Source of the DNA: Myxococcota bacterium
Lineage (GTDB): Bacteria > Myxococcota_A > Bradymonadia > UBA7976 > UBA1532
Assembly: GCA_963169045.1 (NCBI GenBank)
Contig: CAUJDF010000014.1
Coordinates: 124,001-188,000 of the forward strand
Direction: 5' to 3'
DNA: 64,000 nucleotides
This document shows positions 3,773-54,065 of this stretch, in pieces. Made by a program: the position numbers and the translations under genes. The notes beneath the pieces were generated by a model. The model had not been told where the DNA came from. It worked only from the letters and a program-made list of their open reading frames with translations, and searched no databases. Position 1 is the first letter of the stretch; every line of letters starts with the position of its first letter.

Positions 3773-4729
3773 ATGAAATTCGAACCCCGCATCGTCACCG
3801 CCGCCCCCGAAACCGCAACCGCGCTCGTCCGCGACGTCGGCGCCCTCGAAGAGAAGGGCGTGCTGCGCAGCCGCTGGCCCTTCTGGAGGGCGTGGCGCGA
3901 GAAGGAATGGTTCTTCTCGTGCCTGCACGATCCGCAGGCCGGCGTCTACTGTAGCTGGACGTTCGCGCGGACGTTCTATGCGGAGACCTTCCGCTTCTGG
4001 CTGTGCGACCTGCGCACGGACCGATCGTGGCACCTCGACCGACGGATCTTGTTCGACCGTCAGCAGACGCCCGGGCACCTCGACCTGCGTTGGGCGAAGC
4101 GCGGCGCCCTCATCGAGTACCAGGGCGCCGGCGACGAGGCCGCCTTCTCGATGCGCGACGAGCGTTTCCGCGTCGACCTGGAGCTCGTGCGCCGATGGCC
4201 GTCCTTCGTGCGCCGCGAGAACCAGTTCGTATGTGATTACACGCTGTTGCACGACTTCGGAAACGAGGTGCGCGGCGCGATCGAGGTCGAGGGCGAGCGG
4301 TTCGCGGTCGACACGCGCCGCTGTTATACCGACCACTGCTTCGGGCGCGTCCCCTCGCGAACCGGCTGGCACTGGCTCGCGGTGCAGGACGAGCAGCTCG
4401 CGCTCGCGTCCCTCGTGAACTACGGGCCGTACGCGCAGCGATACACCCAGATGTTCGCCGGCGGGGAGTGGGTCCGCCTCGCGCCGGACGTGAACTTCGA
4501 CTACGACCCGCGGCGGCCGCTCGAACCCTGGCGTGTCACGTCGGTGGACCTGGACCTCGTCGCGCGCCCGGTGCGCCTGCATCCGGACCGCGTGCGCGTG
4601 CCGCCGTTCGTCGACATCCGGCACGACGAGCTCCACGTCGAGGTCGAGGGCCGCGTGCGCGTGGAGGGCCGCTGGCGCGCCGTCGGCGGCCTCACCGGCG
4701 TGATGGAGTCCCACCACGGCCGCTGGTGA
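3773..4729 (+). CDS. DUF2804 family protein
   Basis: 318 residues. The ATG at 3773 starts the recognisable homologous region; the ribosome site is weak. The sequence is rich in aromatic residues and predicted beta strands, with blocks WPFWRAWREKEWFF, CYTDHCFGRVPSRTGWHWLAV and GVMESHHGRW. These fit DUF2804, proteins of about 320-350 residues related in fold to the lipocalin-like AttH/CrtC group. Molecular role unknown. No signal peptide or membrane segment is seen. It is divergent from the lysozyme gene, with a 127-bp spacer, and its stop directly abuts the stop of the transporter on the other strand. Confidence 0.8.
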   Translation: MKFEPRIVTAAPETATALVRDVGALEEKGVLRSRWPFWRAWREKEWFFSCLHDPQAGVYCSWTFARTFYAETFRFWLCDLRTDRSWHLDRRILFDRQQTPGHLDLRWAKRGALIEYQGAGDEAAFSMRDERFRVDLELVRRWPSFVRRENQFVCDYTLLHDFGNEVRGAIEVEGERFAVDTRRCYTDHCFGRVPSRTGWHWLAVQDEQLALASLVNYGPYAQRYTQMFAGGEWVRLAPDVNFDYDPRRPLEPWRVTSVDLDLVARPVRLHPDRVRVPPFVDIRHDELHVEVEGRVRVEGRWRAVGGLTGVMESHHGRW

Positions 4730-17167: not shown

Positions 17168-17178
17168 GCGCGCCGCGA

Positions 17179-17206
17179 TCACGCGCGATCACGCCCGCTC
17201 ACGTCC
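17179..17206 (+). promoter_or_regulatory. phased TCAC repeats, probable upstream activator site B
   Basis: Three TCAC units begin at 17179, 17189 and 17199, exactly 10 bp apart (GATCACGCGC, GATCACGCCC, GCTCACGTCC), so all face the same side of the helix. The third is 58 bp before the sigma-54 promoter, identical to site A. It begins 11 nt after the stop of the preceding lipoprotein. Confidence 0.68.
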
Positions 17207-17256
17207 GACGCGGTGCGACCGCCCTCGCCGGCCGCACCGCCGCTGCCTCGTCCCGC

Positions 17257-17271
17257 TGGCACGCCTGTTGC
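17257..17271 (+). promoter_or_regulatory. sigma-54 promoter (-24/-12)
   Basis: TGGCACGCCTGTTGC is a perfect fit to TGGCACG-N4-TTGC. It lies 35 nt before the ATG at 17307, the same spacing as for the promoter at 15129, so the two genes should be coregulated. Confidence 0.87.
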
Positions 17272-17306
17272 GATGATGCCCCCGTCCCCAGCACCCGGAG
17301 GAACCC

Positions 17307-20138: not shown

Positions 20139-20152
20139 TCACGCGCTGTCAC
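20137..20152 (+). promoter_or_regulatory. orphan pair of phased TCAC repeats
   Basis: GATCACGCGCTGTCAC overlaps the stop of the lipoprotein gene. Two TCAC units (20139, 20149) are 10 bp apart and the first decamer is identical to the first unit of site B. No sigma-54 promoter follows; the next gene is convergent and ends at 20155. It may be a remnant of a third regulated unit. Confidence 0.4.
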
Positions 20153-20154
20153 AG

Positions 20155-22848
20155 TCAGTGCCCCTGCACGCGCAGGCGGATGACGCCGTGGTGCTTGTCG
20201 CCGCCGATCGTGATCGGCAGCTCCGCGTCGAACGGCGTCGCCGCCATCTCGCAGTTCAGGTCGATCTGCGTCGTGATCCAGCCGTGGTCGTCCCCCCAGA
20301 AGTCGAGCTCGTCCACGTCGACGCGCACGCCAATCGGCACCGTCTGCCCCACCGGGATCCGGAAGAAGTCGCCGAAGGACGCGCCCACCTCGTTCACCGC
20401 GTTGTGCTTCACGAGGTAGGCCATCGTCTTCGTGTAGCCGCGGTACACGTCGAAGAGTCCGACCTCTCGGAACGAGTTCCCGTGGGCGCTCGCCAGGTAG
20501 TCGGTCGTGAACGCGAAGACGAAGCGCCCGTCCTTGTCGCCCGTCGAGCTCGACAGGTGCGCGAAGCTCCAGAAGTCGAGCTCGAGGTCGCAGGTGGCCG
20601 GCGGGGGCGGCTCGGGGATGACCGCGCACGCCTCCTCCGGGTTGGCGAGCGTCCGGCGGAACACCACGTCGACGTCGTGCTGCCTGTTCCCCTTGGCGTT
20701 GCGCAGCTCGATGCTCGTGCTGAAGGCCGCCGCCGCCTCGTCGGGCGGGCAAGTCAGCGTCAGCGGCACCGTTGTACCGCCGTACTCGTGCGCGGTCGTG
20801 ATCGTCCAGCTCGTCGGCCAGAGCGTGACGATGTCGAGCTCCGTGGCCGTGATCTGCATCGTGGGCTCGACGGTCTCGCCGCATGGCACCTCGACGGTGC
20901 CGAGGCCGTAGGTGCGCGCCTCGGTGTCGTCGAGCTCGACCCACATGGAGCCGTCCGCCGAGGGCAGCACCGTCGACCCGTTGCCGTGCCCGAGGTCGGT
21001 CGTGAAGCGGAACTCGCCGCGTTCGTCGGCGCCCGGCGCCGCGGTGTGCGTGACGTCGAGGCCGTCGAACGCGAAGCGGCACGCGTACTCGGCGGGCGCC
21101 GGGGCGCAGAAGTCGGCGTTCGTCGAGCGCACGCGCGCGTTCACGCCGACGCGGTGCTTCACGACGCCGTTGTCCTGCGCGAGGTCGAGCTCCATCCCGA
21201 CGTCCTGGTAGCCGAGCGCCTGCGCCGGCGGGCACGTCAGGGTGACCGTCTTCGTGAGGGCGCCGAACTCCGAGCCCACCGAGTCGCGCTCGAGCACCTG
21301 GACGGTCAGCGGCACCTCGTACACCGCGCCGCACGGCACGGTGAAGCTCTCGAGGTCGAGGTCGAGCGACCCGCGCTCGCCACGCTTCACCCGCGCGGAG
21401 TCGCTCACGTTCACCGGGTACTTGCGGCCGAGCCCCTCGGGCACCTTCGCGACGACCTCGAACTCGCCGCGCTTGTCGGTGCCCGGGCCGTCGATGTGCT
21501 TCAGCGAGTCGACCGACAGGTGGAACGTGCACGGCGACAGCGCGCCCTCGGCCGGGATCTCGTCGCAGGCCAGCGCCTGGTTGTACGGCCGGAAGAGGAT
21601 CACCACGTCGACCGCGTGCTTCACCGTCCCCGCGGGGTTGGCGAGCTGCAGCGTGAAGGTGCGCACGACGTCGCCCGCGTCGGGCTGGCACTCGAGCCCG
21701 ACCGACGTGTGCAGCGTCGCCTTCTCGTCGGGCTGGGCGAACCCGAAGATCCACCAGTCGTCGATCTCCCGGGCTCCGAGCTCGAGCGCCGCCTCGATCG
21801 GCTCGCCGCACGGCGCGAGGAGCGTGCCCATCGCGCCGTGCACGGACATCGTCTGGTCGACCGCGACCTCGCTCGACGAGAAATCGAATCGTTCCGCGGG
21901 GTTGCCCTCGACGCCGAAGGTGAACGAGAACTCGCCGCGCGCGTCGCCGGCGGGGGCCTTGCGCGGGGTGAACGACACGAACCGCACGTCATACGCGCAC
22001 GGGATCTCGCTGCTGCGGAGCGTCGGCGGCACCTCGTCGTCCGGCAGGCGGCGCGCGACGGGGAGACGCTCCCGGCGCGCCACGTCGAAGGCCGGCAGGT
22101 CGTGGCCGCGCGACAGCGCCCACGCGTAGCTCTCGTGGTCCGTGGCCGGCGCGTCGACCGGCGGCGCGAGCGCGGCGGGCGCGGCGGGCAGCGCCACCGG
22201 CGGCGGCGGCGGCGGCAGGTGCATCGCGACCACGCCGGCGCTCGTCGGTTGGCCGGCGACACGCAAGTGCAGCCGGTACGCGCCCGGCTCCAGGTGGGCC
22301 AGCGCCACCGTCTTCACCTGGCTGCAGAGGCGGTCGTCGCTCTCCGGGTCCGTGAACGCGTCGAACGGGACGAGCGCGCCCCCCTCGTCCTCGATGGTGA
22401 GGACCGCCGCGCGGTCGACGGCGATGACGAGCGGCCGCGCCAGCTCGACGGTCAGCAGGACCGTCGCGCCGCGGCCGCCGCCCTCCGGCTGTAGCGCCAC
22501 GTCGACGCGCGCCTCGCCCGGCTCGACGAGCGCCATCAGGAGCTGCGGCTCGCTCGACTTGGCGACCGGCGCGTCGCGGTCGACGCCGATCCACGCGCCG
22601 GGGGCCTTCGTGCGGACCTGCCGGTCGGGCGAGACCGGGCGGATCGGCTGGTACAGGAGGTCGCAGAGCCGCTCGCCGAGCGTCGGCGCCGGCGGAAGCA
22701 CCGCCACGGCGGGCGCGGCAGCCATCGTCTCGGCGCGGCGGTAGGCGAAGTTCTTGTCGGCCACCCGGTCGAGCGGCCGCGCCTCGATGCGGGACTGCGC
22801 GAGCGCGGGCGAGGCGGCGAGCGCCAACGCCAGAAAGAGCAGCTTCAT
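20155..22848 (-). CDS. secreted protein with four ~140-residue beta-rich repeats
   Basis: 897 residues from ATG at 22848, with AGGAG upstream. Signal peptide 1-18 (ALAQS). Residues 100-210 form a beta-rich domain, then a Pro-rich linker. Four tandem domains follow at about 284-421, 440-572, 590-731 and 753-895. Each starts with a Cys and contains D-x-R-G-E-F or D-G-R-F, a central PCG (absent from the fourth), a late Cys (CPP in copies 2 and 3) and, in the first three, a closing K/R-H-x-V-x-V block. I do not recognise this repeat. It has no lipobox and no membrane anchor, so it is periplasmic or secreted. It lies 35 nt behind the 2115-residue lipoprotein on the same strand and is probably cotranscribed with it. 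Confidence 0.8.
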   Translation of the reverse strand: MKLLFLALALAASPALAQSRIEARPLDRVADKNFAYRRAETMAAAPAVAVLPPAPTLGERLCDLLYQPIRPVSPDRQVRTKAPGAWIGVDRDAPVAKSSEPQLLMALVEPGEARVDVALQPEGGGRGATVLLTVELARPLVIAVDRAAVLTIEDEGGALVPFDAFTDPESDDRLCSQVKTVALAHLEPGAYRLHLRVAGQPTSAGVVAMHLPPPPPPVALPAAPAALAPPVDAPATDHESYAWALSRGHDLPAFDVARRERLPVARRLPDDEVPPTLRSSEIPCAYDVRFVSFTPRKAPAGDARGEFSFTFGVEGNPAERFDFSSSEVAVDQTMSVHGAMGTLLAPCGEPIEAALELGAREIDDWWIFGFAQPDEKATLHTSVGLECQPDAGDVVRTFTLQLANPAGTVKHAVDVVILFRPYNQALACDEIPAEGALSPCTFHLSVDSLKHIDGPGTDKRGEFEVVAKVPEGLGRKYPVNVSDSARVKRGERGSLDLDLESFTVPCGAVYEVPLTVQVLERDSVGSEFGALTKTVTLTCPPAQALGYQDVGMELDLAQDNGVVKHRVGVNARVRSTNADFCAPAPAEYACRFAFDGLDVTHTAAPGADERGEFRFTTDLGHGNGSTVLPSADGSMWVELDDTEARTYGLGTVEVPCGETVEPTMQITATELDIVTLWPTSWTITTAHEYGGTTVPLTLTCPPDEAAAAFSTSIELRNAKGNRQHDVDVVFRRTLANPEEACAVIPEPPPPATCDLELDFWSFAHLSSSTGDKDGRFVFAFTTDYLASAHGNSFREVGLFDVYRGYTKTMAYLVKHNAVNEVGASFGDFFRIPVGQTVPIGVRVDVDELDFWGDDHGWITTQIDLNCEMAATPFDAELPITIGGDKHHGVIRLRVQGH

Positions 22849-40505: not shown

Positions 40506-43124
40506 TTGAGCATCGCCGAAGACGACCTGAAGATCGGCCTCGCGGCGCTCGAGCGCGGCCTGCTGACGGCGGCGGAGCTGCTCGATCTGGCGTGGCACCT
40601 CGGGCGCGCGCGCCCCGGCAGCGCCGACATGGCGGCGCTGCTCCTCGAGGGCGGCTTCGTCACGCACGCCGAGCTGCCGGCGCTCTGCGTCGGGGCCACG
40701 GGGCAGAGCACGCTCGCCACGCTGGCGACGCTCGGCGCCCTGGCGCCCACGCAGCATTCGCTGCCGCCGCTGATGACGCCCTCGCCGGGCGACGGCGAGC
40801 GGCAGGCGCTGGTGGATCCGATTGGCGAGTACGGGCTCGACGGCGATCGTTTCCGGCGGCGCTATGTGCAGGGCGAGGAGATCGGCCGCGGCGGCGTGGG
40901 GCGCGTGACGAGCTTCCGCGATCTGCTGATGGGGCGCACCGTGGCGATCAAGGCGCTGCACGACCCGCGGGCCGGCGGCACCGCGCTCGCGCGCTTCCTC
41001 GCCGAGGCGCGCACGACGGCGCGCCTCGAGCACCCCAACGTGGTGCCGGTGCACGATCTCGGCGTGGGCCCCGACGGCGCGCCGTACTTCACGATGAAGC
41101 GGGTGCGCGGCCGCTCGCTGCGCCAGGTCCTCGACGGCCTCGAGCGCGGCGAGGAGGCCGAGCGCTTCTCGCGCTACCGCCTGCTCGGCCTCTTCGCGCA
41201 GGTGTGCATGGCGGTCGACTACGCGCACTCGCTCGGTGTCATCCACCGCGACCTCAAGCCCGAGAACCTGATGGTCGGCGACTTCGGCGAGGTCTTCGTC
41301 ATGGACTGGGGCATCGCCCGGGTCCGCGGCGCCGCGCCCGAGCCCGAGCCCGCGTCGGGGACGCTGTCCTTCGACAGCACGCCGGTGACGCTCGCGGGCA
41401 CGATCTTCGGCACGCCGGGGTACATGGCGCCGGAGCAGGCCGCCGGGCAGACCGACGCGCTCGGCCCGCAGACCGACGTCTGGGCGCTCGGCGCCATCCT
41501 GTACGAGCTGCTGACGGGCCGCCGCACGCACGAGGCGCCCTCGCCGCTCGCGGTGCTCGTCGCCACCGTGCGCGAGGACGTCGTCCCCCCGCGTCAGCGG
41601 TCGCCGCGACGCGACATCCCCCCGGACCTCGAGGAGATCTGCCTGCGCGCGCTCGCCCGCGATCCGGCGGGGCGCTATCCGACCGCGCGCGCGCTCCACG
41701 AGGAGCTCGAGCGGTACCTCGAGGGTACGCGCGAGCGCGAGCGGCGCGAGGCCGAGGCGACGCTGCTCGTCGAGGAGGGCCGCGAGGTCCGCTGGTACAT
41801 GCGCACGCTCGCCGAGGAGCTCGTCGCCGTGCGCGAGCGCCTGCGCCAGATGCCGCCGCTGTCTGGCAACGACCCGGTGGAAGTCAAGCGCGAACGGTGG
41901 TCGCTCGAGGACCGCGGCGAGGACCTCGAGCGCGAGCGGCAGCGCGCCTTCCGCTGGGCCGAGGCGAAGCTCGTGCGCGCCACGGAGCTCGTCCCCGGCC
42001 GCGCCGACGCGCGCCTCGAGCTCGCCGAGATGCACTGGCAGCGCTATCGCCAGGCCCGCGACGCCTTCGACCACCGCGCCGCCGAGGAGCACCTCGAGGC
42101 GGTGGCGCGCTACGACGACGGCGCCTTCGCGACGCTGCTCGCGCCCACCGTGCCGCTCGATCTCGAGACCGATCCGCCGGGCGCCGAGGTGGTGCTCTTC
42201 CGCTACGAGGCGCGCGACCGGGTGCTGGTGCCGGTGGCCGAGCGCGTGCTCGGCAGGACGCCACTGCGGGGCGTGCCCGTGCCCACCGGCCGGCGGCTGC
42301 TCGAGATCCGGCACGCCGGGCGCCGGGCGGTCCGGCTGCCGGTGCTGACGGACCAGGGCGACGCGCTGACGTTCCGCGTGCCGCTGCCGACCGACGCCGC
42401 GCTCGGCGAGGGCTTCGTGTACGTGCCGGCGGGGCCGTTCCTGCGCGGCAACGACCGCGAGGCGCTCATGCCGGCGCCGGCGGCGCGCACCCGGCTCGAG
42501 GCGTTCGCCATCGCGCGGTATCCGGTCACCGTGGCCGAGTACTTCGAGTTCCTCGCCGATCTGTCATCCGACGAGGCCCGCCGGCGGGCCCCCCGCGAGG
42601 AGACGGGCAAGGCGCTGCTCGGCCCCGACGCGGGCGGCCGCTGGACGACGCCCGCCCGCGACGCGGACGGCGACCTGTGGCATGGCGACTGGCCCGTGGT
42701 GCACGTCCACTTCGACGACGCGCGCACCTACGCTGCCTGGAGGAGCGCGCGCGACGGCGCCCGCTACCGCCTGCCCACCGAGGACGAGTGGGAGAAGGCG
42801 GCGCGCGGCACCGACGGACGCTTCTTCCCGTGGGGCGACCACTTCGACCCCGCGTGCTGCCTGATGCGCGACACGGTGCCCGGGCGGCCCAGCCTGCACC
42901 CGGTCGGATCGCGGCCCGCCGACGAGTCGCCCTACGGCGTGCGTGACATGGCCGGCGGCGCCCGCGCCTGGACGGACTCCTGGTACGAGCCGGGCCAGCG
43001 CGCGCTGCGCGGCGGCGCGTGGAACCTCTACGCCAACTTCTGCCGCGCCGCGAGCCGCTGGGGCATGAGCCCCAACCGCCCGCTCGCGAACACCGGCATC
43101 CGCCTCGTCAAGCAGATCGAGTAG
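40506..43124 (+). CDS. Ser/Thr kinase fused to formylglycine-generating-enzyme-like domain
   Basis: 872 residues from a TTG at 40506, the first plausible start after the divergent spacer. A small helical domain (1-100) precedes a kinase (about 120-405): Gly loop GRGGVGRV, Lys149, HRDLKPEN with Asp249, DWG at 267-269, MAPEQ. A basic coiled region (415-540) follows, then a PEGA-like beta unit (about 555-605, LETDPPGAEVVL), and an FGE-sulfatase domain from about 640 (GEGFVYVPAGPFLRGND, FAIARYPVTVAEYFEFL, RLPTEDEWEKAARG, LRGGAW). In true FGE enzymes a Cys pair oxidises sulfatase cysteine; here the fold may only bind a ligand. The kinase site looks intact. Confidence 0.9.
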   Translation: MSIAEDDLKIGLAALERGLLTAAELLDLAWHLGRARPGSADMAALLLEGGFVTHAELPALCVGATGQSTLATLATLGALAPTQHSLPPLMTPSPGDGERQALVDPIGEYGLDGDRFRRRYVQGEEIGRGGVGRVTSFRDLLMGRTVAIKALHDPRAGGTALARFLAEARTTARLEHPNVVPVHDLGVGPDGAPYFTMKRVRGRSLRQVLDGLERGEEAERFSRYRLLGLFAQVCMAVDYAHSLGVIHRDLKPENLMVGDFGEVFVMDWGIARVRGAAPEPEPASGTLSFDSTPVTLAGTIFGTPGYMAPEQAAGQTDALGPQTDVWALGAILYELLTGRRTHEAPSPLAVLVATVREDVVPPRQRSPRRDIPPDLEEICLRALARDPAGRYPTARALHEELERYLEGTRERERREAEATLLVEEGREVRWYMRTLAEELVAVRERLRQMPPLSGNDPVEVKRERWSLEDRGEDLERERQRAFRWAEAKLVRATELVPGRADARLELAEMHWQRYRQARDAFDHRAAEEHLEAVARYDDGAFATLLAPTVPLDLETDPPGAEVVLFRYEARDRVLVPVAERVLGRTPLRGVPVPTGRRLLEIRHAGRRAVRLPVLTDQGDALTFRVPLPTDAALGEGFVYVPAGPFLRGNDREALMPAPAARTRLEAFAIARYPVTVAEYFEFLADLSSDEARRRAPREETGKALLGPDAGGRWTTPARDADGDLWHGDWPVVHVHFDDARTYAAWRSARDGARYRLPTEDEWEKAARGTDGRFFPWGDHFDPACCLMRDTVPGRPSLHPVGSRPADESPYGVRDMAGGARAWTDSWYEPGQRALRGGAWNLYANFCRAASRWGMSPNRPLANTGIRLVKQIE

Positions 43125-43189: not shown

Positions 43190-45169
43190 ATGCGATACGA
43201 ATGCTTGTGGGCGGTGGTGTGTCTGCTGGCCGGGTGCGAGGGCGGCATGGGCCGCGGCGGCGACGCCGGCCTCTCGCCGGACGCCGGGCTCGGCGGTCCC
43301 GACGGCGGCGGCCTGGTGGTGCGCCCCGACGACGGCCCGCCTCGGCGGCCGGCGGCCTGCCCCGGCGACCGGCAGATCGCGCTCGTCGTGGGACGCGCCT
43401 GCCCGATCGACCGGAGGGCTCCTTGGTTCACCAGCCAGATCCTGCAGATCGGCGACGCCCGCTTCTGCGCCTACACCTGGACGGACGGCGGCGCGAACCC
43501 CGACCCGGACCTGTTGCCGTTGCGGGGCGCACAGCCGGACTGCCACGTCGTGGCGGCGCAAGCCTCGCCGGAGGACGTCCGCGCGTCGCTGGCGCCGGCG
43601 TTCCACGCCGCCTTCCTGCAGGCCGCCGACGCGATGACCGAGCTGCCGCCGGCCTCCGGCGCGCTCGGCGGGACGGTGACCGTCGCGGTCATCGACACGT
43701 GGGCCGACGAAGAGGCGCCCGGCGCGACGAACCCCGTGCGGACGTTCCATGGCCAGGCCATGGCCCACTTCATCGGCGGCCTCACCGGCGCGCGGTCGGG
43801 CGCGGGCCTGGGTGCCGACAACGGCCTCCGCCTCGACGCACGCCGCGCCCTCGACCTCTTCGTCCCGGAGGACGGAGAGCGGCCGGTCGTGGTCGGCGAG
43901 GGCGACGGCCACTTCGGCTATCAGGGTCGCCTCGCCGAGGAGATCGCGCGCGCGGTCGCCGAGGCGCCCGCCGGGCCGCGACAGCGCCTCGTGATCAACC
44001 TGGCCGTCGGCTGGAACCCGCACTGGGGCGGCCTCGACGAAGGGATGCCCCTCTCGTCGGCCGTGGTCCTCGCCGCGCTCGTGCAAGCGCGCTGCGCCGG
44101 CGCGGCGATCTTCGCGGCGGCGGGCAACAGCAGCGGCGGCCAGGCGGGCACGACGGGGCCGATTCTGCCGGCGGCGTGGGAGCAGTGGACCGTCGACGCC
44201 GCCATCGAGGCGCTCGGGATCGAAGACGTGGCCTGCCCGCTGTCGGCGGACGAGCGCCGGACGTCGCTCGTGTTCGCCGTCGGCGGGCTCGACTACGACG
44301 ACCAGCCGCTCGCCAACGCCCGGCCCCAGGGCCTCCCGCGCCTCGGCGCGACGGCGTTCTACGCGTCGGCGGACGTGAGCGGGCGGCTGTTCGCGGGGCC
44401 CGCGCCCGTCGCCACGGACTTCTTCACCGGCAGCTCGGTGTCCACGGCGGTCGCCTCCGCGGCGGCGGCCCTGTCGTGGCGCTATCGCCCGGCGCTGTCG
44501 GCCTCGGCGCTCCACACGCTCGTCCTGCGCGCCGCGATGCCCGTCGGCCCGCGCGCCGACTTCTGCCTCCGTCCGCCCTGCGGCGAAGTGCGCCGCGTCT
44601 CGGTGTGCCGCGCCGTGGAGAGCGCGGTGGAGCGCAGCCTGCCGTGCCGGGACCTCGGCAACGGACGGGCCGTGCCGCCGCCGCTGACGGCGAACCTCGG
44701 CGCGAACGTCCGGCCGCCCGACCGCCGGACGGAGTCGAGCTGGGCGGCGGCGCGGCGGGTCTGCGACGTGCGCTGGCTCAGGGCCGGCGTCGGACAGACG
44801 GTGGGCCAGCCCTGCCCGGACCTGCGGCACTACGACGGTCACATGGTGCCCTGGGCGGTGTCGCCGCAACCGCAGATCAACGGGTGCGACGTCTGCAGCC
44901 TGCAGCGCGCGAGCAGTGGCGGGTGGACGTTGTTCGTCGGCGTCAGCGCCAAGGTGTCGTCGCTCGACGGGCCGATGCTCGTCCTGCCGGGTGGCCAGAC
45001 CATTGACATCGGCAAGACCTACCGCACCTCCTCGCTGACAGGCGGAAAGTTCTATCAATTCAACGGCTTGCCCATCTCGAGCGCCCCCTCTTCGGCGTCG
45101 CTCGTGTACCGCGTCTCGGCAAGCACGGGCACGTGGTCGGCCAAGGCCCCCCTCTACATCAAGTTCTGA
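43190..45169 (+). CDS. subtilisin-like (S8) peptidase lipoprotein
   Basis: 659 residues; ATG at 43190 is preceded by GAGGG, and gives lipobox LLAGC (Cys16) followed by an Asp/Gly linker. The S8 catalytic set is recognisable: Asp169 (VTVAVIDTW), His187 (FHGQAMAHFIGG), Asn313 of the oxyanion hole (AAAGNSSG) and Ser416 (TGSSVSTAVASAAAAL). Residues about 500-659 form a Cys-containing beta-rich domain. An active surface or periplasmic serine protease is the expected product, though Ala/Pro replacements in the Ser motif (STAV for ATPH-like) could lower activity. It lies between the kinase-FGE gene and the sigma factor operon. Confidence 0.8.
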   Translation: MRYECLWAVVCLLAGCEGGMGRGGDAGLSPDAGLGGPDGGGLVVRPDDGPPRRPAACPGDRQIALVVGRACPIDRRAPWFTSQILQIGDARFCAYTWTDGGANPDPDLLPLRGAQPDCHVVAAQASPEDVRASLAPAFHAAFLQAADAMTELPPASGALGGTVTVAVIDTWADEEAPGATNPVRTFHGQAMAHFIGGLTGARSGAGLGADNGLRLDARRALDLFVPEDGERPVVVGEGDGHFGYQGRLAEEIARAVAEAPAGPRQRLVINLAVGWNPHWGGLDEGMPLSSAVVLAALVQARCAGAAIFAAAGNSSGGQAGTTGPILPAAWEQWTVDAAIEALGIEDVACPLSADERRTSLVFAVGGLDYDDQPLANARPQGLPRLGATAFYASADVSGRLFAGPAPVATDFFTGSSVSTAVASAAAALSWRYRPALSASALHTLVLRAAMPVGPRADFCLRPPCGEVRRVSVCRAVESAVERSLPCRDLGNGRAVPPPLTANLGANVRPPDRRTESSWAAARRVCDVRWLRAGVGQTVGQPCPDLRHYDGHMVPWAVSPQPQINGCDVCSLQRASSGGWTLFVGVSAKVSSLDGPMLVLPGGQTIDIGKTYRTSSLTGGKFYQFNGLPISSAPSSASLVYRVSASTGTWSAKAPLYIKF

Positions 45170-45313: not shown

Positions 45314-45901
45314 GTGCGGGCGAACTACGCGCGAGACGACCAGGACGCCGAGCGCGAGGCGCGCGAGGCGCTCGGTCGCGGCGACCACCGCGCCGCGCTG
45401 GCGATGCTCATGCGCGTCCACGGCGAAGCGATCTATCGCCACTGCCGCGTCGTGCTCCAGGACGACGACCTCGCCCACGACGTGCTGCAGACCGTCTTTG
45501 TCCAGGCCCACCGCGATCTCGGTTCGTTCGGCGGTCGCTCGAACCTGCGCGGGTGGCTGTTCGGCATCGCGCGCCACCGCTGCCTCGACGCGCTGCGCAG
45601 CCGGCAGCGGCAGCGGCAGCGGCACGTGTCCGATGAGGGCGCGCTCGATGTGGCGGCGGACCCCCGCGCGGGTGTCGAGGCGCTCCTGGCGGCGGGCGAC
45701 GACGCCGAGCAGCTCGAGCGCTGCCTGCGCGAGCTGCGCCCCGACATCCGCATCGCGGTGCTGCTCCGCTTCCAGGAAGGCATGTCCTACGAGGAGATGG
45801 AGCGCGTGTGCCGCGAGCGCTCCGACACGCTGCGCGCGCGTGTCGTGCGCTCGCTGCCGTTCTTGCGGCGCTGTCTCGAGCAGCGGGAGGCGGCGACATG
45901 A
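45314..45901 (+). CDS. ECF-type RNA polymerase sigma factor
   Basis: 195 residues from GTG at 45314, with AGGAGG 8 nt upstream. Region 2 is clear (YRHCRVVLQDDDLAHDVLQTVFVQAHRDLGSF, then SNLRGWLFGIARHRCLDALR) and region 4 follows (LRPDIRIAVLLRFQEGMSYEEMERVC, LRARVVRSLPFLRRCL); there are no regions 1 or 3. It should direct a small regulon in response to an envelope signal. Its stop overlaps the anti-sigma start as ATGA, the normal arrangement for a sigma/anti-sigma pair. Which promoters it reads cannot be told from one gene. Confidence 0.92.
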   Translation: MRANYARDDQDAEREAREALGRGDHRAALAMLMRVHGEAIYRHCRVVLQDDDLAHDVLQTVFVQAHRDLGSFGGRSNLRGWLFGIARHRCLDALRSRQRQRQRHVSDEGALDVAADPRAGVEALLAAGDDAEQLERCLRELRPDIRIAVLLRFQEGMSYEEMERVCRERSDTLRARVVRSLPFLRRCLEQREAAT

Positions 45902-46596
45902 GCGCGTGTGAACGCTTCGAGCGCGAGGGCCTCGCCGCCCTCGACGCCGGCGAGGCGCTCGATCCCCACTTCGACGACTGCGCCGAGTGCCGCGCCGCCC
46001 GCGCGGCCCACGCGCGGCTCGCGGCGGCCCTGCCGCGTGTCGGCGCGCGCTACACGCCCCGCGGCGACTGGGAGGCGCGCGTCCTCGCCGCCGTGGCCCG
46101 CGAGCGGCCGTCGCGCGGTCGTCTGGTGGCCTGGCTGGCGGCGGCGCTGGTGGCCGTCGCGGCGGCGGTCCTGCTCTTCCCGCGCGGCGCGGCGGAGCTG
46201 CCGGTCTACGGCCTGTCGGTCTCCGCGGGCGAGTCGCCCGTGCGCAGCGGCGACACCGTCCAGGACGCGCCGGTGCTTGGTCCGGGCTCGGCGCTGACGG
46301 TCGTGCTGCAGCCCGAAGGCGCGGTGACCGGACCGGTCGCCGTCGGCGCCTGGGCGCTCGGACCGGCGGGCCTGCGCGCGCTGGCCGCGGCGCCCGAGGT
46401 GGCGGCGTCGGGTGGGGCGCGGGTGCGCGTCGAGGCCGGCGATCCGGCCCTCGTCGCCGGGCCGATCACGCTCGTCTTCGCCGTCGCGCCCGCCGGCGCG
46501 CAGCCCGACGCGGCGGCGGTGCAACGCGCGCTCGACACCGGCACGACGGACGGATGGCGCCTGCTCCGCCAGCCGGTGGTGGTCCGCGGCCCGTGA
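45898..46596 (+). CDS. membrane anti-sigma factor with zinc motif
   Basis: 232 residues. The cytoplasmic N-terminus has the ZAS signature His24-x3-Cys28-x2-Cys31 (HFDDCAEC). A single membrane helix at 76-94 (VAWLAAALVAVAAAVLLF) is followed by about 135 periplasmic residues of beta-rich, Gly/Pro/Ala-rich sequence. In such factors the N-terminus holds the sigma factor and the periplasmic part receives the signal, usually through proteolysis. Start ATGA-coupled to the sigma factor. Because the CHAT-protease lipoprotein is made from the same operon and sits on the periplasmic side, the C-terminal domain here is a candidate substrate. Confidence 0.88.
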   Translation: MSACERFEREGLAALDAGEALDPHFDDCAECRAARAAHARLAAALPRVGARYTPRGDWEARVLAAVARERPSRGRLVAWLAAALVAVAAAVLLFPRGAAELPVYGLSVSAGESPVRSGDTVQDAPVLGPGSALTVVLQPEGAVTGPVAVGAWALGPAGLRALAAAPEVAASGGARVRVEAGDPALVAGPITLVFAVAPAGAQPDAAAVQRALDTGTTDGWRLLRQPVVVRGP

Positions 46597-46769
46597 GCGC
46601 CCGCCCCCTCGGGACGCCCGCGCTGTTCGGCGAAGCGCCGGTCCGTCGCCCGCGGTGTGGTGCCGCCGCACGCGGGGCCTCTGCCCGAGCCGCGACACGA
46701 GGCGCCCGTTCGTCGATGGCGCGCCCGCGGCGTGGTGGGCCGCCCCGCCGGCCCGCGCGCGCGCCGTGA
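46593..46769 (+). CDS. possible 58-aa basic peptide between anti-sigma and CHAT genes
   Basis: GTG at 46593 overlaps the anti-sigma stop (GTGA) and the TGA at 46767 overlaps the CHAT start (GTGA), so the frame bridges the gap exactly. It encodes an Arg/Ala/Pro-rich peptide with no recognisable motif. The composition is what random high-GC sequence would give, so coding is doubtful. Its value may be to carry ribosomes across the gap between the two larger genes. Confidence 0.25.
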   Translation: MSARPLGTPALFGEAPVRRPRCGAAARGASARAATRGARSSMARPRRGGPPRRPARAP

Positions 46770-49405
46770 GCCTGCGCCCCGCCGTCGCGCTGTCGATCGC
46801 GGCGCTGGGGTGCGCCGCCCCCGACCCCGGGCCGCCGCCGCTCCCCCTCGCCGTGGAGTTCGCGGGCTGCGCCGCCGTCACGCGCGGGCCGGTGTGCGTC
46901 CCGGCACCGGACCGTCCGGTGGTGCTGTGGGTGTCCGCGCCGCCGGGGGCGACGTTGGAGGTGGCCCCCGGCGCACCGCCTTCGGAGTCGGTGGCGGACG
47001 GCGCGCGCTTCCGGGTCGCGGTGCCCGACGGAACCGCGGCGGTGACCGTGCGCGCGACCGCCGGTGCCGCGCGGGGCGAGTGGCGCCTGCCCCTGGCCAC
47101 GACGACCCCGCACGCCGAGGTGGCTGCCGCCCGCGCCCTTCGGGCCGGCGGCAAGGCCGCGGAGGCCGCGGAGCGCCTCGCCGCGGCGCTCCCCGCGCTC
47201 CCGCTCCCGGCGCGCGCCGAGGCGCTCGGCCTGCTCGGCCGGCTCGAGCACGGGCGCGGCCGCCCCGAGGCCGCCTACGCGCACCTGCGCGAGGCGATCC
47301 GCGCCGGCGTCGAGGCGGGGCACGTCTCGCAGCCGGCCGACGACGCGTTCGCGCTGGCCTACTTCCTCGTCCACGACGCCCGCCGGCTGGACGAAGCGCG
47401 GGCCGCGCTCGACGAGGTGGAGCCGCTCGTCGCCGCCTACCCCGAGGGCGCGTCACGCCTGCCCTACTACCGCGCGGTCGTCTCCCAGGAGGCCTGGGAC
47501 CTGCGCGCCGCCCTGGCGCAGGCCGACGAGGCGGAGGCGCGCGCGACGCGACTCGACGTCCGACGGATCCGCGACTTTGCGCGGCAGACGCGCGCCGGCG
47601 TCTTTCGGCAGCTGGGGCGCCACACCGAGGCCGTCGCCGTGCTCGAGTCGCTGCGCGCCGACGCCCCCGCCGCGCCGCCGTGCGACCGCGCGCAGCTGCT
47701 CAACAACCTCGGTTGGGCGTACACGCTGGCGGGCGGCGGCGATCCCATCCCCCTGCTCGAGGCGGCGGTGGCGCTCTACGGCGGCGAGTGCGGGCGCCCC
47801 GCCGACGAGGCCAACGCGCGCGTCTCGCTGGCCACCGCGCAGCTCCGCGCCGGCCGACCCGCGGCGGCGCGCGCGCAGATCGAGGCCGTGCGCGCGAGTC
47901 CGCGCCTCGACGCGTTCGTGGCGCCCTGGCTCGAGGACCTCGAGGGCGAGTTGGCGCTCGCCGAGGGCCACCCCGAGGCGGCGATCGAGCGCTTCGGGCG
48001 CCGGCTCGCCGATCCGGCGACGCCGCCGGAGCTCGTGTGGCGGGCGCACGTGGGGCTCGGCCGCGCCCACCGCGCCCGCGGCTCGCTCGCCGAGGCGGCG
48101 GCGGTGCTCGGCCGGGCCGAGGCGCTCGTCGAGGCGCTGCTGCTGCGCGCGCCGCTGGCGGAGGGGCGCGGCGCTGCGGTGTCCGAGCTCGAGGCGGGCA
48201 CACGGCTGTACCTCGACGCTCTCCTTGCGCTCGACCGGCCCGCGGAGGCGCTGGCGGTGGCGCGGCGCGCGAGCGCGCGGTTGCTGCGTCACGCACAGCG
48301 CATCGACCGCATGCGCGCACTGCCCGAGGGCGATCGTCGGCGGTGGGAGCGCGCGATCGGCGAGTACCGGCGGCGCCGCGCCGCCCTCGAGCAGGCGGCC
48401 ACCGAGGACTGGCAGCACCCCGCCCCGGTGGCGGCGCGGCGCCGGGCCGAGCGCGCCGCCGACGAGGCCACGCTGCGGCGCGCGCTCGACGAGGCCCTGT
48501 CCACGCTGCCGCGCGAGCCGGCGGACGCGGCGCTCTCGGTGCCCGCGCCCGGCGAGCTGCTGCTCGCCTACGCCGCCCTTCCGGAGGGCTGGGTCGGTTT
48601 CGCCGCCGACGAGCGCGGGGTCGTGGCGCGGCGGCTGCCCGCCGTGGATCCGCGCGCCCCGGCCGACACGCTCCTCGCGCCGTTCGCCACGCAGATCGCG
48701 CGCGCCGCCCGCCTGCGCGTCCTCGCGCCGGCGGCGCTGCGCGACGTCGACTTCCACGCGCTGCCCTGGGGCGACGGCCCGCTGCTCGCGCGGCTGCCAG
48801 TGGCCTACGGCGCCGACCTGCCACCGTTGACCGCGGGCGCGCCCCACGGGCCGGCGCTCGTGGTGGCGGATCCGCAGGACAACCTGCCGGGCGCGCGCGC
48901 GGAGGCCGAGGCCGTCGCCCAAGCGCTGCGCGCCCGCGCGCACGGGGTCGTGGTGCTCGCCGGGGCCGCGGCCTCGGGCGAGGCGGTGCGTGCCCACGCC
49001 GCGCGCGCTGCGGTGCTGCACTTCGCCGGGCACGCGGTGTTCGCCGGCCGCGAGGGCTGGGACAGCGCCCTGCCCCTGGCCGATGGCGCGCGGCTCGGCC
49101 TCGGCGACATCCTCGCGCTGCCCGCCGTGCCGCCGCGGGTCGTGCTCGCCGGCTGCGAGACCGCCCGCACCGACGGCGGCGGACGCGGCGAGGGCATCGG
49201 CCTCGCCCACGCCTTCCTGAGCGCCGGCGCCCGCGAGGTGCTCGCCGCACCGCGCCCCGTCCCCGACGCGCTCGCCGCCCGCCTCGCCGGCGCTCTGCAC
49301 GCGCGCGCCGACGCCGACCTCGCGACGGCCCTGCGCGCCGTCCAACTCGAGCTGCGTGCCGCCGGGGAGCCGGAGTGGGCCGTCTTCCGCGTGCTCGTGC
49401 GCTGA
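46766..49405 (+). CDS. CHAT-domain protease lipoprotein with TPR-like repeats
   Basis: 879 residues from GTG at 46766, where the lipoprotein signal begins (LSIAALGC, Cys16). A beta-rich segment (25-110) is followed by TPR-like helical repeats over about 115-520 (AEALGLLGRLEHGRGRPEAA, NNLGWAYTLAGG, ANARVSLATAQLRAGRPAAA). A helical stretch leads to the C-terminal CHAT domain (about 600-879) with the caspase-like dyad His756 in VLHFAGHAV and Cys797 in VVLAGCETA. CHAT proteases are cysteine peptidases of the caspase/separase clan and usually need an activation signal. Encoded in one operon with a sigma factor and its membrane anti-sigma, which suggests that it cleaves a regulator. The catalytic pair is intact. 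Confidence 0.85.
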   Translation: MSLRPAVALSIAALGCAAPDPGPPPLPLAVEFAGCAAVTRGPVCVPAPDRPVVLWVSAPPGATLEVAPGAPPSESVADGARFRVAVPDGTAAVTVRATAGAARGEWRLPLATTTPHAEVAAARALRAGGKAAEAAERLAAALPALPLPARAEALGLLGRLEHGRGRPEAAYAHLREAIRAGVEAGHVSQPADDAFALAYFLVHDARRLDEARAALDEVEPLVAAYPEGASRLPYYRAVVSQEAWDLRAALAQADEAEARATRLDVRRIRDFARQTRAGVFRQLGRHTEAVAVLESLRADAPAAPPCDRAQLLNNLGWAYTLAGGGDPIPLLEAAVALYGGECGRPADEANARVSLATAQLRAGRPAAARAQIEAVRASPRLDAFVAPWLEDLEGELALAEGHPEAAIERFGRRLADPATPPELVWRAHVGLGRAHRARGSLAEAAAVLGRAEALVEALLLRAPLAEGRGAAVSELEAGTRLYLDALLALDRPAEALAVARRASARLLRHAQRIDRMRALPEGDRRRWERAIGEYRRRRAALEQAATEDWQHPAPVAARRRAERAADEATLRRALDEALSTLPREPADAALSVPAPGELLLAYAALPEGWVGFAADERGVVARRLPAVDPRAPADTLLAPFATQIARAARLRVLAPAALRDVDFHALPWGDGPLLARLPVAYGADLPPLTAGAPHGPALVVADPQDNLPGARAEAEAVAQALRARAHGVVVLAGAAASGEAVRAHAARAAVLHFAGHAVFAGREGWDSALPLADGARLGLGDILALPAVPPRVVLAGCETARTDGGGRGEGIGLAHAFLSAGAREVLAAPRPVPDALAARLAGALHARADADLATALRAVQLELRAAGEPEWAVFRVLVR

Positions 49406-49520: not shown

Positions 49521-52500
49521 TCAGGCGCGCCGGCGGCGCCGCACCACCACCAGGCCGGCGGCGACGAGGGCGAAGGCCCAGGGCGCGGCGGCGCCGTCGA
49601 CCGCGCGGCAGCCGCCGCCGCCACCGCCGCCACCGCCCTTCACGCTGAAGCGACGCGTCGCGGAGTGACCGCTGGCGGTGCCCTTCTCGTCGTAGGCCAC
49701 CACGTACCAGGTGTACGTCGCGCCGGCCTCGAGGCCCTCGGGGATGGCGTTGCGGCTGCTGCTCCGGGGCGTCTTGCCGCACGTCGTGCCGCCTTCGATG
49801 CAGAAGCTCGCCTCGTAGCTCACCTTGGTGCGCTCGGGATCGTCGACCTGCGTCCAGACGAGCGCCACGTCGGCGTCGACGTCGGCCCCGTCCGCGGGTG
49901 CGATGAGCGCCGGCGCCGGCGGGGGCTCCTCGGTCGCCGAGACGAAGAACGTCGCCGAGGCCACGTCCGAGTTGACCTCGCCGTCGGTGGCGAAGACCTC
50001 GAGCGTGTACCGCGCGTTCTCGGCGAGGCCCGCCTCCGGCTGCCAGCCGGCCTCGTCGCCGTCGGGCGCCAGCGGCTCGGACTTCGCGGTCTCCTGGCCT
50101 GCCTCGTCGCGCAGCGTGAACACGTACTGCACCGTGGGGCTGTCGAGGTCGACGCTGCCGCCGGCGATGAACGTCGGGCGCAGCTCGGTGACGGTCGCCT
50201 CGTTCGTCGGGAACCGGATCTGCGGCGTCGAGGGCTCCTGGTTCGAGGTGTTCACGGTGAAGGTGCGCCGCTCGCTCGGCGCCGACGCCTCGCCCTGCTC
50301 GTCGCGGGCGACCACCTCCCACGCGTACACGACGTTCTCGATGAGCACCGCCCGCGGCACGAACTGCACGACGTCCTCGGTCAGCGTCCCGCGTTCGCTC
50401 GACTCCGGCGTCGCCGTCCCGTTCTCGTCCAGCCGGAACAGGTTGAACGTGTAGACGAGCTCGTCGCCGTCCGGATCCTCGGAGGGCAGCGCCTCGAGCG
50501 CCGGCTGCAGCTCGGAGACGACCGCGCCGTCTTCGGGCGAGCGCAGCACCGGCGTCGTCGGCTGCTGGTTGGTGGCGTTCGTCCGGAAGCTGCGCGGCAG
50601 CGACCATTCGCTGTGCGCCGTCGGGGTCGTCGCCCTCGCCCGCCACCAGTACCACGTGTCCTCGAGCAGCAAGCCCGCCGCCGGCTGCCACACCGTCGGC
50701 GCCTCGCCCGCCGCCTGCGGCACCGGATCGCTCGTCACGAACGCCGTCCCCGCCTGGAGCGCCTCGAGGCTCTCGTACAGCTCGAACACCAGCGACACCT
50801 GGTCGCCGCCGCCCACGTTGGTGACGGTCAGCATCGGCTCGAGCGTGCGGACGCGTTCCCCGTCGTCGGGCGCGAGCGCCTCCGGCGTCGACGGCCCCTC
50901 GTAGGTGAAGGGATCGGTGCCGTCGCGGAACTCGGTCGCGTTGTCGCGGCCGTCGCCGTCGATGTCGCTGGTGGCGTCGTTCGGATCGGTCGGATCGAGG
51001 CACACGCCCTGCGCGTTGCACGTGCGCCGCTCGTACGTGTCGGGCAGGCCGTCGCCGTCCTCGTCGAGCGGCAGGACCATGACGCGCAGCTCGCTCGTAT
51101 CGCGGCCGCCGTCGCCGTCGTCGGCGCGCACGCGCAGCGTGAGCGGGCTCGACAGCGCGTCCTGGTAGGTGGGCGTCCACACGAACCGGCCGGCCTGGGG
51201 ATCGATCTCGACGCCCGGCGGCGGGTCGATCAGCGACCAGGTGATGCGGTCGTTCGCGAGCGCCGGATCGTCGGCCACCATGATCAGCCCGTACGGCGTG
51301 CCCTCGACCGCCGGCGGCGCCTCGGCGATGTCGACGATCGTCGGCGCGACGTTGGTGATGATGACCTGCGCCTCTGCCACGCTCTCGCCGCCGTCCTCGT
51401 CGCGCGCGGTCAGCGTGGCGAGGAAGCGCGCGTCGTCGGGCGCGCGCACCGTCTGCTCCAGCTCGGCGTTGCTCTGGATGTCGGCCTCGCCGTCGCCGTC
51501 GGTGTCCCACAGCAGCGTGACCACGTCGTCGCCGCGCTCGTCGACCGTCGCGCGGAACACCAGGTCCTCGCCCTCGGCCACCGGCGAGTTCACCCGCAGC
51601 GTGATGCGCGGCGCCACGTTGCGCACCTCGACCGGCGCCTCGACGGTCGCCGTGTCGGTGCCGTCGTCGACGAGCACCACCAACGTGTACATGCCCTGGT
51701 CGGCGTACACCGCGTTGATCTCGTCGTGATCGAGGCCCTCGAGCTCGAACACGCCGTCGCCGTCGAAGTCGTACGAGTAGCGCAGCTCATCGCCGCCGGG
51801 ATCCTGCGCATCGACGCGCACCGCGATCTCGGTGCCCTCGTCGCCCGGCGACTCCACCTCCACCGTCGCGGTCGGGGCCACGTTGCGCACGACGACGCGC
51901 GCCTCGAGCGACGCCGCCGCGCCGACGTCGTCGCGCACCCGCACGCGCAGCGTGAAGACGCCCTCCTGCGCCAGCGACACGTCGCGGACGGCGTCGCGGG
52001 AGTTGATGATGTCGAACGCGCCGTCTCCGTCGAGGTCCCAGTCGTACAGCAGCGCATCCGCGCCCGGATCCTGAGCCGTCACGCGCACTTGGAAGACCTG
52101 CCCCTCGTCGACGAACTCCGGGGCCTCGATCGACCCCGTCGGCGGGCCGTTGACGATCTCCACCTCGGCGACGGCCACCGCGAAGAGACCGGCGTCGTCG
52201 CGCACGCGGACGCCGACCGTCTTCAGCCCCTGCTGCATGAAGGTGTGCTCGACGAAGTTCTCCTCGGCGTCGCTGACGTCGTCGGCGAAGTCGCCGTCGT
52301 TGTCGAGGTCGAACGAGTAACGCAGCGGATCGTTGCCCGGATCGTTGGCCACCACCTCGATGCGGATGACCGAGCCCTCCTCGACCGGCCCGGTGTCGCG
52401 CACGGCGACGATCGCCGGCCGGGCGTTGAGGATGGAGAGGTCCTCCTCGCGGGTCACGCGGAGCCCGGCGTCGTCGGTGACGCGCACGCGGATGGTGTAC

Positions 52501-54065
52501 AGGCCGTCGCTCGGGAAACGCGTCTCGACCTGCTCGAGGCCGACGCCGGCCCGCTCGAACACGCCGTCGTCGTCGAGGTCGTACTCGAAGTTCATCGGGT
52601 CGTCGCCCGGATCCTGGGCGACGACGTTGATCGTCACCAGCGCCCCCTCGGGCGCCGGCGTGTTGCTGATGATGTCGAAGACCTGGGGTGCCCCGTTGCG
52701 GACGACGACCTCGAACTGGCGGACCGACGAGCCGCCGTCGTCGTCGTGGGCGCGCACGGCGGCGGTGTAGTCGCCGTCGGCGAGGTAGCGGTGCTGCCAG
52801 CGCGCCACCTGCACGCCGACCTCCTCGAAGGTGCCGTCGCCGTCCCAGTCGAAGTCGAACGCCACCTGGTCGGCGCCGGGCTCGACCGCCTGGACCTCGA
52901 CCTGGAGCTCGCTGCCCTCTTCGATCGGGGAGTCGGTGATGACGCCGTCGATGCGCGGCGCCACGTTGACGACGACCACACGCGCGGCGTCGACGTCGGT
53001 CTTGCCGCCGGCGTCCGTCACCCGGACCCTCACCTCGTAGACGCCGTTGTCGCGGAACGTGGCGAGCGCGTTGGCGCCCGCGGCGTCGTCGAACTCGCCG
53101 TCGGCGTCGAGATCCCAGAGGTACTGCATCGGCTGCGCGTCGGGATCGACGGAGCCGACCGCCGTGAGCGCCACCTGCTGCCCCTCGGGCGCGTTGTAGG
53201 GGCCGCCGGCGTCGGCCACCGGGGCGGCGTTGCCGGGATCGACGTCGAAGTTGAGGATGGCGCGCCGCTCGTCGTCGGTGAGGCCGAAGAGCACATCGGT
53301 GGGCATGCCGAGCAGGTTGCCGACCTCGGCGACCGCCTCGCCGCGGTCGGCTTCGTGGGTCACGGCGGTGAGGAAGGCGACGGTGGCGCCGGCGTTCACC
53401 GTGACCTCGCGGAACTCCCACGCGAAGGCGGCCACGTCGTTGGGATCGGCGAAGCGCAGGGACACGCGCGAGGGCGTCACGCGCGCGCCGGCGCCCTGAA
53501 GGAGGTGGCCGAGCGCGCCCGCGCCGCCGAAGGCGTCGTTGTCGTCGGTCACGACCCAGCGGTCGCTCACCTCGACCTCGGCGTCGTCGTCGCCCGTGCG
53601 TCGCACGGCCGTCTGCGCCGCCGAGCCGAGCCGTCCGATGCCGGCGCCGGTGCTGCCGATGCGCACCGACACGGTCACCGGCGCCGCCCCCGGGTTGGTC
53701 AGCAGGTCGAGGTAGCGCACGAAGCCGTTGGCCTGGGCGGGTCCCGCGCCGGGCACGAACACCTTGCGGCGGACCTGCAGACCCGCGCGGTTCACCGCGG
53801 TGAGCGCGCGCTGCCGGCCGTTGAGCTCCTCGGCGGAGGCCTGCCCGCCGGCATCATAGGTGTCGGCGGCTTCGCAGGCGCCCTCACAGTCCTGGCAGAC
53901 CCGCACGCACAGTCCCGGCCACCCGGCGAACGCCGCGGGCGCGGTGAGCTGTCCGCCGGAGCGGTCCTGTACGGTGAACTGGGTCCCGTTGGCCGCGGTG
54001 AGGACCACCTGCGCCGAGGCAGGGAAAGCCATCAGCCACAGGATGGCCGCGAACGACGCGCGCAT
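49521..54065 (-). CDS. PKD/FN3 multidomain surface protein with MYXO-CTERM-like tail, 1514 aa
   Basis: ATG at 54065 with GGAGGAG before it; signal peptide ends near PASAQ. An N-terminal beta domain (20-310) carries four cysteines (CVRVCQDCEGAC). Seven PKD-like domains follow (about 315-930), each with the YxWDxDGDG core and NVAP boundaries. Then come an Ig-like/He_PIG domain (VAPTIVDIAEAPPAVEGTPY), a calcium-type TSP3 segment (DGDGLPDTYE, DIDGDGRDNATE) and four FN3-like domains. The C-terminus is a Gly stalk, Cys, hydrophobic helix and RRRRR. It should be exported and retained on the surface by the C-terminal signal. Adhesion or matrix function is the family expectation. It follows the kinase operon after a 368-bp spacer with a strong hairpin, so it may have its own promoter. 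Confidence 0.87.
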   Translation of the reverse strand: MRASFAAILWLMAFPASAQVVLTAANGTQFTVQDRSGGQLTAPAAFAGWPGLCVRVCQDCEGACEAADTYDAGGQASAEELNGRQRALTAVNRAGLQVRRKVFVPGAGPAQANGFVRYLDLLTNPGAAPVTVSVRIGSTGAGIGRLGSAAQTAVRRTGDDDAEVEVSDRWVVTDDNDAFGGAGALGHLLQGAGARVTPSRVSLRFADPNDVAAFAWEFREVTVNAGATVAFLTAVTHEADRGEAVAEVGNLLGMPTDVLFGLTDDERRAILNFDVDPGNAAPVADAGGPYNAPEGQQVALTAVGSVDPDAQPMQYLWDLDADGEFDDAAGANALATFRDNGVYEVRVRVTDAGGKTDVDAARVVVVNVAPRIDGVITDSPIEEGSELQVEVQAVEPGADQVAFDFDWDGDGTFEEVGVQVARWQHRYLADGDYTAAVRAHDDDGGSSVRQFEVVVRNGAPQVFDIISNTPAPEGALVTINVVAQDPGDDPMNFEYDLDDDGVFERAGVGLEQVETRFPSDGLYTIRVRVTDDAGLRVTREEDLSILNARPAIVAVRDTGPVEEGSVIRIEVVANDPGNDPLRYSFDLDNDGDFADDVSDAEENFVEHTFMQQGLKTVGVRVRDDAGLFAVAVAEVEIVNGPPTGSIEAPEFVDEGQVFQVRVTAQDPGADALLYDWDLDGDGAFDIINSRDAVRDVSLAQEGVFTLRVRVRDDVGAAASLEARVVVRNVAPTATVEVESPGDEGTEIAVRVDAQDPGGDELRYSYDFDGDGVFELEGLDHDEINAVYADQGMYTLVVLVDDGTDTATVEAPVEVRNVAPRITLRVNSPVAEGEDLVFRATVDERGDDVVTLLWDTDGDGEADIQSNAELEQTVRAPDDARFLATLTARDEDGGESVAEAQVIITNVAPTIVDIAEAPPAVEGTPYGLIMVADDPALANDRITWSLIDPPPGVEIDPQAGRFVWTPTYQDALSSPLTLRVRADDGDGGRDTSELRVMVLPLDEDGDGLPDTYERRTCNAQGVCLDPTDPNDATSDIDGDGRDNATEFRDGTDPFTYEGPSTPEALAPDDGERVRTLEPMLTVTNVGGGDQVSLVFELYESLEALQAGTAFVTSDPVPQAAGEAPTVWQPAAGLLLEDTWYWWRARATTPTAHSEWSLPRSFRTNATNQQPTTPVLRSPEDGAVVSELQPALEALPSEDPDGDELVYTFNLFRLDENGTATPESSERGTLTEDVVQFVPRAVLIENVVYAWEVVARDEQGEASAPSERRTFTVNTSNQEPSTPQIRFPTNEATVTELRPTFIAGGSVDLDSPTVQYVFTLRDEAGQETAKSEPLAPDGDEAGWQPEAGLAENARYTLEVFATDGEVNSDVASATFFVSATEEPPPAPALIAPADGADVDADVALVWTQVDDPERTKVSYEASFCIEGGTTCGKTPRSSSRNAIPEGLEAGATYTWYVVAYDEKGTASGHSATRRFSVKGGGGGGGGGCRAVDGAAAPWAFALVAAGLVVVRRRRRA

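Follow-up and report, generated by a model that had tools for sequence, protein, structure and literature searches.

What does a secreted protease have to do with the sigma factor and the membrane anti-sigma factor encoded beside it? An earlier note on the window (the whole 64,000-nt stretch of DNA from a Myxococcota bacterium analysed here) had proposed that a CHAT protease frees a neighbouring ECF sigma factor by cleaving its anti-sigma factor. We find this proposal plausible, given the linkage of the genes, the catalytic dyad, the predicted location of CHAT in the periplasm, natural fusions and the parallel with Csx29, but incomplete, because it missed a second protease, a subtilase, in the same cassette.

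The window cassette consists of four genes, encoding an ECF sigma factor, an anti-sigma factor, a TPR-CHAT protease and an S8 subtilase (Table 1). The first three, and the ATGA coupling of sigma to anti-sigma, had been described before and were recovered as such: the sigma stop and the anti-sigma start overlap by four nucleotides (ATGA, 45898-45901), and 169 nt separate the end of the anti-sigma gene from the start of the CHAT gene. The subtilase gene lies upstream of the sigma gene on the same strand, with a gap of 144 nt. Immediately upstream of the subtilase gene, also on the same strand, is a gene for a Ser/Thr kinase fused to an FGE-sulfatase (formylglycine-generating-enzyme-like) domain (40506-43124, +), which does not recur in other copies of the cassette. 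At 49521-54065 (−), the window encodes a 1514-aa protein with PKD/Ig repeats, whose C-terminus (a Gly-rich stretch, a Cys, a hydrophobic helix and RRRRR) forms a MYXO-CTERM-like sorting signal, a feature that points to Myxococcota as the most likely source phylum.

Table 1. Features of the cassette in the window (positions count from the first nucleotide of the window).
Feature	Position	Strand	Evidence
S8 subtilase lipoprotein	43190..45169	+	Pfam Peptidase_S8 9.4e-8; D169/H187/N313/S416 present; start 43190 or 43214
ECF sigma factor, regions 2 and 4, GTG start	45314..45901	+	Pfam Sigma70_r2 3.4e-13, Sigma70_r4_2 2.4e-6
Membrane anti-sigma factor, 232 aa	45898..46596	+	Sequence; AlphaFold2 pLDDT 85; family profile vs PDB 3hug_B, E 8.5e-4
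Anti-sigma cytoplasmic half, aa 1-72	45898..46113	+	L081 lineage; 57.9 bits to L081, next relative 12.5
Anti-sigma periplasmic half, aa 96-232	46183..46593	+	Ordinary-cassette lineage; L046 48.9 bits, L096 48.3, L081 no match
TPR-CHAT protease, 879 aa, GTG start	46766..49405	+	Pfam CHAT 3.2e-29; AlphaFold2 pLDDT 91.4, pTM 0.90
Catalytic His756 codon of CHAT protease	49031..49033	+	Invariant, 78/78 relatives covering site
Catalytic Cys797 codon of CHAT protease	49154..49156	+	Invariant, 78/78 relatives covering site

As the earlier note had it, residues 756 and 797 of the CHAT protein are exactly His and Cys, the catalytic pair of a CHAT peptidase in an intact CHAT domain, and alignment shows both kept in all 78 relatives that cover the sites. 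The AlphaFold2 model divides the protein into a beta domain (residues 29-110), a TPR solenoid (117-579), which makes up its bulk, and the CHAT domain (597-879). Its N-terminus carries a signal peptide and the lipobox claimed earlier, at A-L-G-C16; the lipobox is weak in the window protein, whereas it is clear in half of the relatives, and others have an N-terminal hydrophobic anchor or a signal peptide. The CHAT protease is predicted to be periplasmic. The window subtilase likewise begins with a signal peptide and a lipobox (LLAGC), and prediction has both proteases secreted. The subtilase also has the Asp/His/Ser triad and the oxyanion Asn of an S8 peptidase; these four residues are invariant in 47 of 47 relatives, and S8 is matched by every one of 25 cassette subtilases (Pfam). 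Because the active sites never vary even though the relatives share just about 20-45% identity with the window proteins overall, the alignments provide strong evidence that catalysis is under selection in both families. The subtilase, conserved equally in the cassette, is as good a candidate for the cutter as CHAT.

The anti-sigma factor is modelled with four N-terminal helices, a transmembrane helix (aa 73-93, within a hydrophobic stretch of the sequence at aa 73-95) and a C-terminal beta sandwich (aa ~100-232), which is predicted confidently (pLDDT mostly >94 past residue 130). By its predicted periplasmic placement, this C-terminal domain probably lies on the same side of the inner membrane as the CHAT protease, as had been supposed. 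In the model, the N-terminal helical domain carries H24-FDD-C28-AE-C31, an HxxxCxxC motif (aa 24-31), ahead of the transmembrane helix, as in ZAS-type anti-sigma factors. The label ‘zinc anti-sigma’ thus suits the window protein, but it does not carry over to the family, which keeps the single transmembrane helix and usually not the motif: HxxxCxxC is present in 10 of 79 relatives, and zf-HC2 (Pfam) matches 4 of 28. Because so few relatives have it, the zinc motif does not, as judged from these alignments, define the cassette anti-sigma factor. In the PDB, the family profile matches 3hug_B, an entry described there as a conserved membrane protein; a weaker match is the anti-sigma factor ChrR. 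We take 3HUG to be the M. tuberculosis SigL-RslA complex. A Foldseek likeness of the ectodomain to nanobodies was set aside, as it means only an Ig-like beta sandwich (the best VIA match, at Z 9.9, is NPC2).

Conservation of the linkage had been proposed as a check, and it held. The CHAT protein was searched against 58 related genomes, and genes were called and profiles run around the matches. Full-length relatives are numerous in the window’s own genome, which has 15 CHAT genes, and in several other genomes of the family, with up to 12 matches per genome; across the phylum, a relative at E <= 1e-40 was found in 57 of 379 genomes and 43 of 236 genera. In all, 73 loci with a CHAT relative were read: 33 came from the family and 40 from other families of the phylum. 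A sigma, an anti-sigma and a CHAT gene are all present in 56 of them, and a subtilase gene joins these three in 38 (21 in the family, 17 elsewhere in the phylum), with order and strand shuffled among loci; no subtilase lies near 18 of the 56 (5 in the family, 13 elsewhere). From the 34 sigma-region-2 matches and 14 S8 matches in the window’s genome (9.0 Mb), chance would place a sigma gene within about 6%, and an S8 gene within about 2.5%, of 15.8-kb intervals. With dozens of loci repeating these partners, the four-gene linkage is confirmed as real and well beyond chance. Of 26 sigma-like partners compared with Pfam, all match Sigma70_r2 and 21 match r4_2, although most partner sigma factors are divergent. 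A search with the window sigma factor gave one close sigma, at L081, and might have been read as non-conservation of the linkage; we rejected this reading, as profiles built from the neighbours show that the remaining sigma factors are present but divergent.

Twenty counter-loci were picked for a strong sigma match and for having no CHAT neighbour already known; being selected against CHAT, they give no rate. Four have a sigma gene only, four have CHAT, and 12 have sigma and anti-sigma only, with CHAT and subtilase absent within about 8 kb. From these 12 we conclude that sigma and anti-sigma can function as a pair where the proteases are missing or encoded elsewhere.

Several loci depart from the common pattern. 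Two CHAT relatives (L061:3894-5789 and L063:3903-5840) have no sigma or anti-sigma gene nearby, and each immediately follows a gene for a C14 caspase lipoprotein (Pfam 4e-21 and 1e-21, respectively); a caspase-like pair there replaces CHAT and subtilase. At L119:9452-10390 (+), a 312-aa protein with a TIR-like start, whose C-terminal half matches CHAT (1.4e-10), adjoins a CHAT cassette. Contig C72 of the window’s genome (G000) carries three RAMP-family genes at 15659-22225, probably a type III CRISPR effector, and no CHAT gene. PADLOC matches (BovA, PD-T4-6 kinases) were judged to be generic domain matches.

Whether the members of a set belong specifically to one another was assessed by correlating pairwise distances over 22-28 loci of the family, against a null in which partners were shuffled within each genome (2000 trials). 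Correlations ranged from 0.63 to 0.90 over the component pairs (CHAT-subtilase 0.90, CHAT-anti-sigma 0.70, anti-sigma/sigma 0.70), compared with shuffle means of 0.01-0.10, and 0 of 2000 shuffles reached the observed value. Because within-genome shuffles never reach the observed correlations, the distances show each gene set behaving as a dedicated unit, inherited together.

By its best matches, the window copy is a natural chimera: the sigma factor and the cytoplasmic half of the anti-sigma factor come from another lineage, and the rest comes from ordinary cassettes. The window sigma factor is by far closest to that of L081 in the same genome (168 bits, 49% identical; next 37 bits), and the anti-sigma factor has L081 as its closest relative in the cytoplasmic half too, whereas the periplasmic half finds no match in L081 and is closest to L046 and L096 (scores in Table 1). 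The CHAT protein is closest to those of L092 (485 bits) and L046 (482), and the subtilase to those of L109, L112, L106 and L046. The break point falls near the membrane helix of the anti-sigma factor. On these affinities, the chimera tells two wirings apart: the cytoplasmic half goes with sigma, and the periplasmic half goes with CHAT and subtilase. Natural fusions occur as well: in L102 and L110, both from one genus, anti-sigma, transmembrane helix, ectodomain and TPR-CHAT follow one another in a single frame.

The L081 sigma/anti-sigma pair (2881-4085), the closest relative of the window pair, lies 2 kb from a gene on the opposite strand for a CHAT lipoprotein of a different type (735 aa; L081:6097-8304). 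L114:9992-14155 (−) reads in one frame through a subtilase, an Asp/Thr-rich acidic linker, a MYXO-CTERM-like helix (CSGC...LLFFLFALLALLRK) and an ECF sigma factor, an order of domains that is also the gene order of the window. It is a possible protease-ectodomain sigma fusion, but a single case in a draft genome, where loss of a stop codon or an error in sequencing would look alike, and it is not taken as proof.

Parts of this arrangement were already known, namely the fused anti-sigma-TPR-CHAT protein DdvA and ECF54 sigma factors beside subtilase and CHAT genes. By model and profile comparison, the closest known relative is M. xanthus DdvA, not a CRISPR system. For the CHAT model, Foldseek ranks DdvA (8rot, E 7.9e-15) first and Csx29 behind it; DdvA is likewise the best PDB match of the CHAT sequence profile (E 4e-13), and its CHAT part retains His and Cys; structural realignment gave Csx29 Z 31.5, separase Z about 27 and DdvA Z 26.4, the DdvA alignment covering residues 327-991 with 612 aligned (rmsd 5.7). 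DdvA is the anti-sigma factor of the ECF factor DdvS, and a 2015 paper reported that its inactivating signal was unknown (PMC4374960). According to PMC12288465, which cites Bernal-Bernal 2018 and 2024, this M. xanthus ECF sigma and transmembrane anti-sigma pair (PDB 8rot, 8rw5) has DdvS controlling an antiphage island of CBASS-type systems and a type III-B CRISPR-Cas system. Like DdvS/DdvA, the window locus joins an ECF sigma factor to a one-TM anti-sigma factor and has a TPR-CHAT of the same fold, periplasmic by prediction. In contrast, the window TPR-CHAT is a separate secreted protein rather than part of the anti-sigma factor, the anti-sigma factor has a beta-sandwich ectodomain of its own, and a subtilase is included. 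The cassette is a split, two-protease relative of DdvS/DdvA.

The ECF54 group, as reviewed in PMC8999054 (citing Casas-Pastor 2021), has carboxypeptidase, subtilase and CHAT proteins in its gene context, and proteolytic control without an anti-sigma factor was proposed for it. The window sigma factor shares the subtilase and CHAT of that context; unlike ECF54 as described, which also has the carboxypeptidase, it comes with a membrane anti-sigma factor, as do most cassettes (56 of 73 loci). Compared by the description of the group, the cassette may overlap ECF54, in which case the ‘no anti-sigma’ description would need revising. Like RseA in RseA/DegS regulated proteolysis, the window anti-sigma factor has one transmembrane helix and a periplasmic domain, where cutting is plausible, but the role of site-1 protease would fall to CHAT or subtilase and not to a PDZ serine protease.

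The composition of the cassette suggests that the brake, the anti-sigma factor, is controlled by protein cutting outside the inner membrane. We lean towards the view that it is a dedicated envelope-signalling cassette, in which one or both secreted proteases act on the periplasmic domain of the anti-sigma factor and free the sigma factor; with the topology predicted, this action, and hence the release, is what we infer. The cytoplasmic half of the anti-sigma factor would hold the sigma factor, and the periplasmic beta sandwich would be where CHAT and subtilase dock or cut. One protease would be activated by a signal from outside, with the TPR solenoid as its probable sensor; one of the two, possibly with one activating the other, would then cut or disable the periplasmic domain, and degradation of the remaining anti-sigma factor would free the sigma factor. 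The whole would be a split, two-protease version of a DdvS/DdvA-type ECF switch. More tentatively, and short of thinking it probable, we consider a modular relay at the inner membrane, in which CHAT and subtilase are a dedicated, exchangeable periplasmic input that switches on whichever ECF sigma factor the cytoplasmic half carries, in several insulated copies per cell.

The proteases could instead be cargo: the sigma/anti-sigma pair would sense alone and induce CHAT and subtilase as secreted effectors, for example against prey or competitors, that never touch the anti-sigma factor. Both proteases are indeed predicted to be secreted, sigma and anti-sigma pairs without them exist, and other secreted proteases lie beside some CHAT genes (the C14 caspases of L061 and L063). 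This account is weakened by the anti-sigma-CHAT fusions, by the precedent of DdvA, which has TPR-CHAT within the anti-sigma factor itself, and by the window chimera, where the part of the anti-sigma factor that travels with CHAT and subtilase is the periplasmic half alone; we regard it as unlikely, if a serious contender. Less likely again is that CHAT serves as a non-proteolytic sensor, its TPR/CHAT body binding a ligand and contacting the anti-sigma factor allosterically, as the DdvA ectodomain may, with catalysis kept for another purpose. The structural match to the DdvA ectodomain and the predominance of the TPR solenoid in the protein would suit such a role, whereas a His and a Cys that never vary in 78 relatives and a second protease so tightly co-inherited (r=0.90) would not.

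The analogy drawn earlier with type III-E CRISPR systems stands as a functional parallel, but DdvA is the closer one. In the type III-E Craspase, Csx29 cleaves Csx30, an inhibitor of CASP-sigma (PMC10028731); as proposed for the window, a TPR-CHAT protease there acts on an inhibitor of an ECF-type sigma factor, and Csx29 gives the highest Z of the structural matches. That the cassette is itself a CRISPR-linked system of this kind, with an RNA-triggered CHAT, we think extremely improbable. Craspase is cytoplasmic and RNA-guided, whereas signal peptides place the window CHAT outside the cytoplasm; Csx30, unlike the window protein, is not a one-TM anti-sigma factor; and the window locus is without Cas7-11 or an array, no CRISPR repeat array being found in window positions 30000-64000 and no RAMP genes on the window’s contig. 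The RAMP genes of this genome are on C72, which holds none of its 15 CHAT genes.

To our knowledge, few substrates of secreted CHAT proteases are known, and the cassette gives a short list of candidate partners for each protease. The natural fusions and the domain swap map which half of the anti-sigma factor goes with which partner, and the many paralogous sets within one genome allow specificity to be compared. Judged from the sequences, the cassette is widespread and of a myxobacterial type, a sigma factor and its membrane brake being passed on along with two secreted proteases that both appear active. If the proposed relay is true, caspase-like and subtilisin-like proteases would join the bacterial ways of releasing sigma factors.
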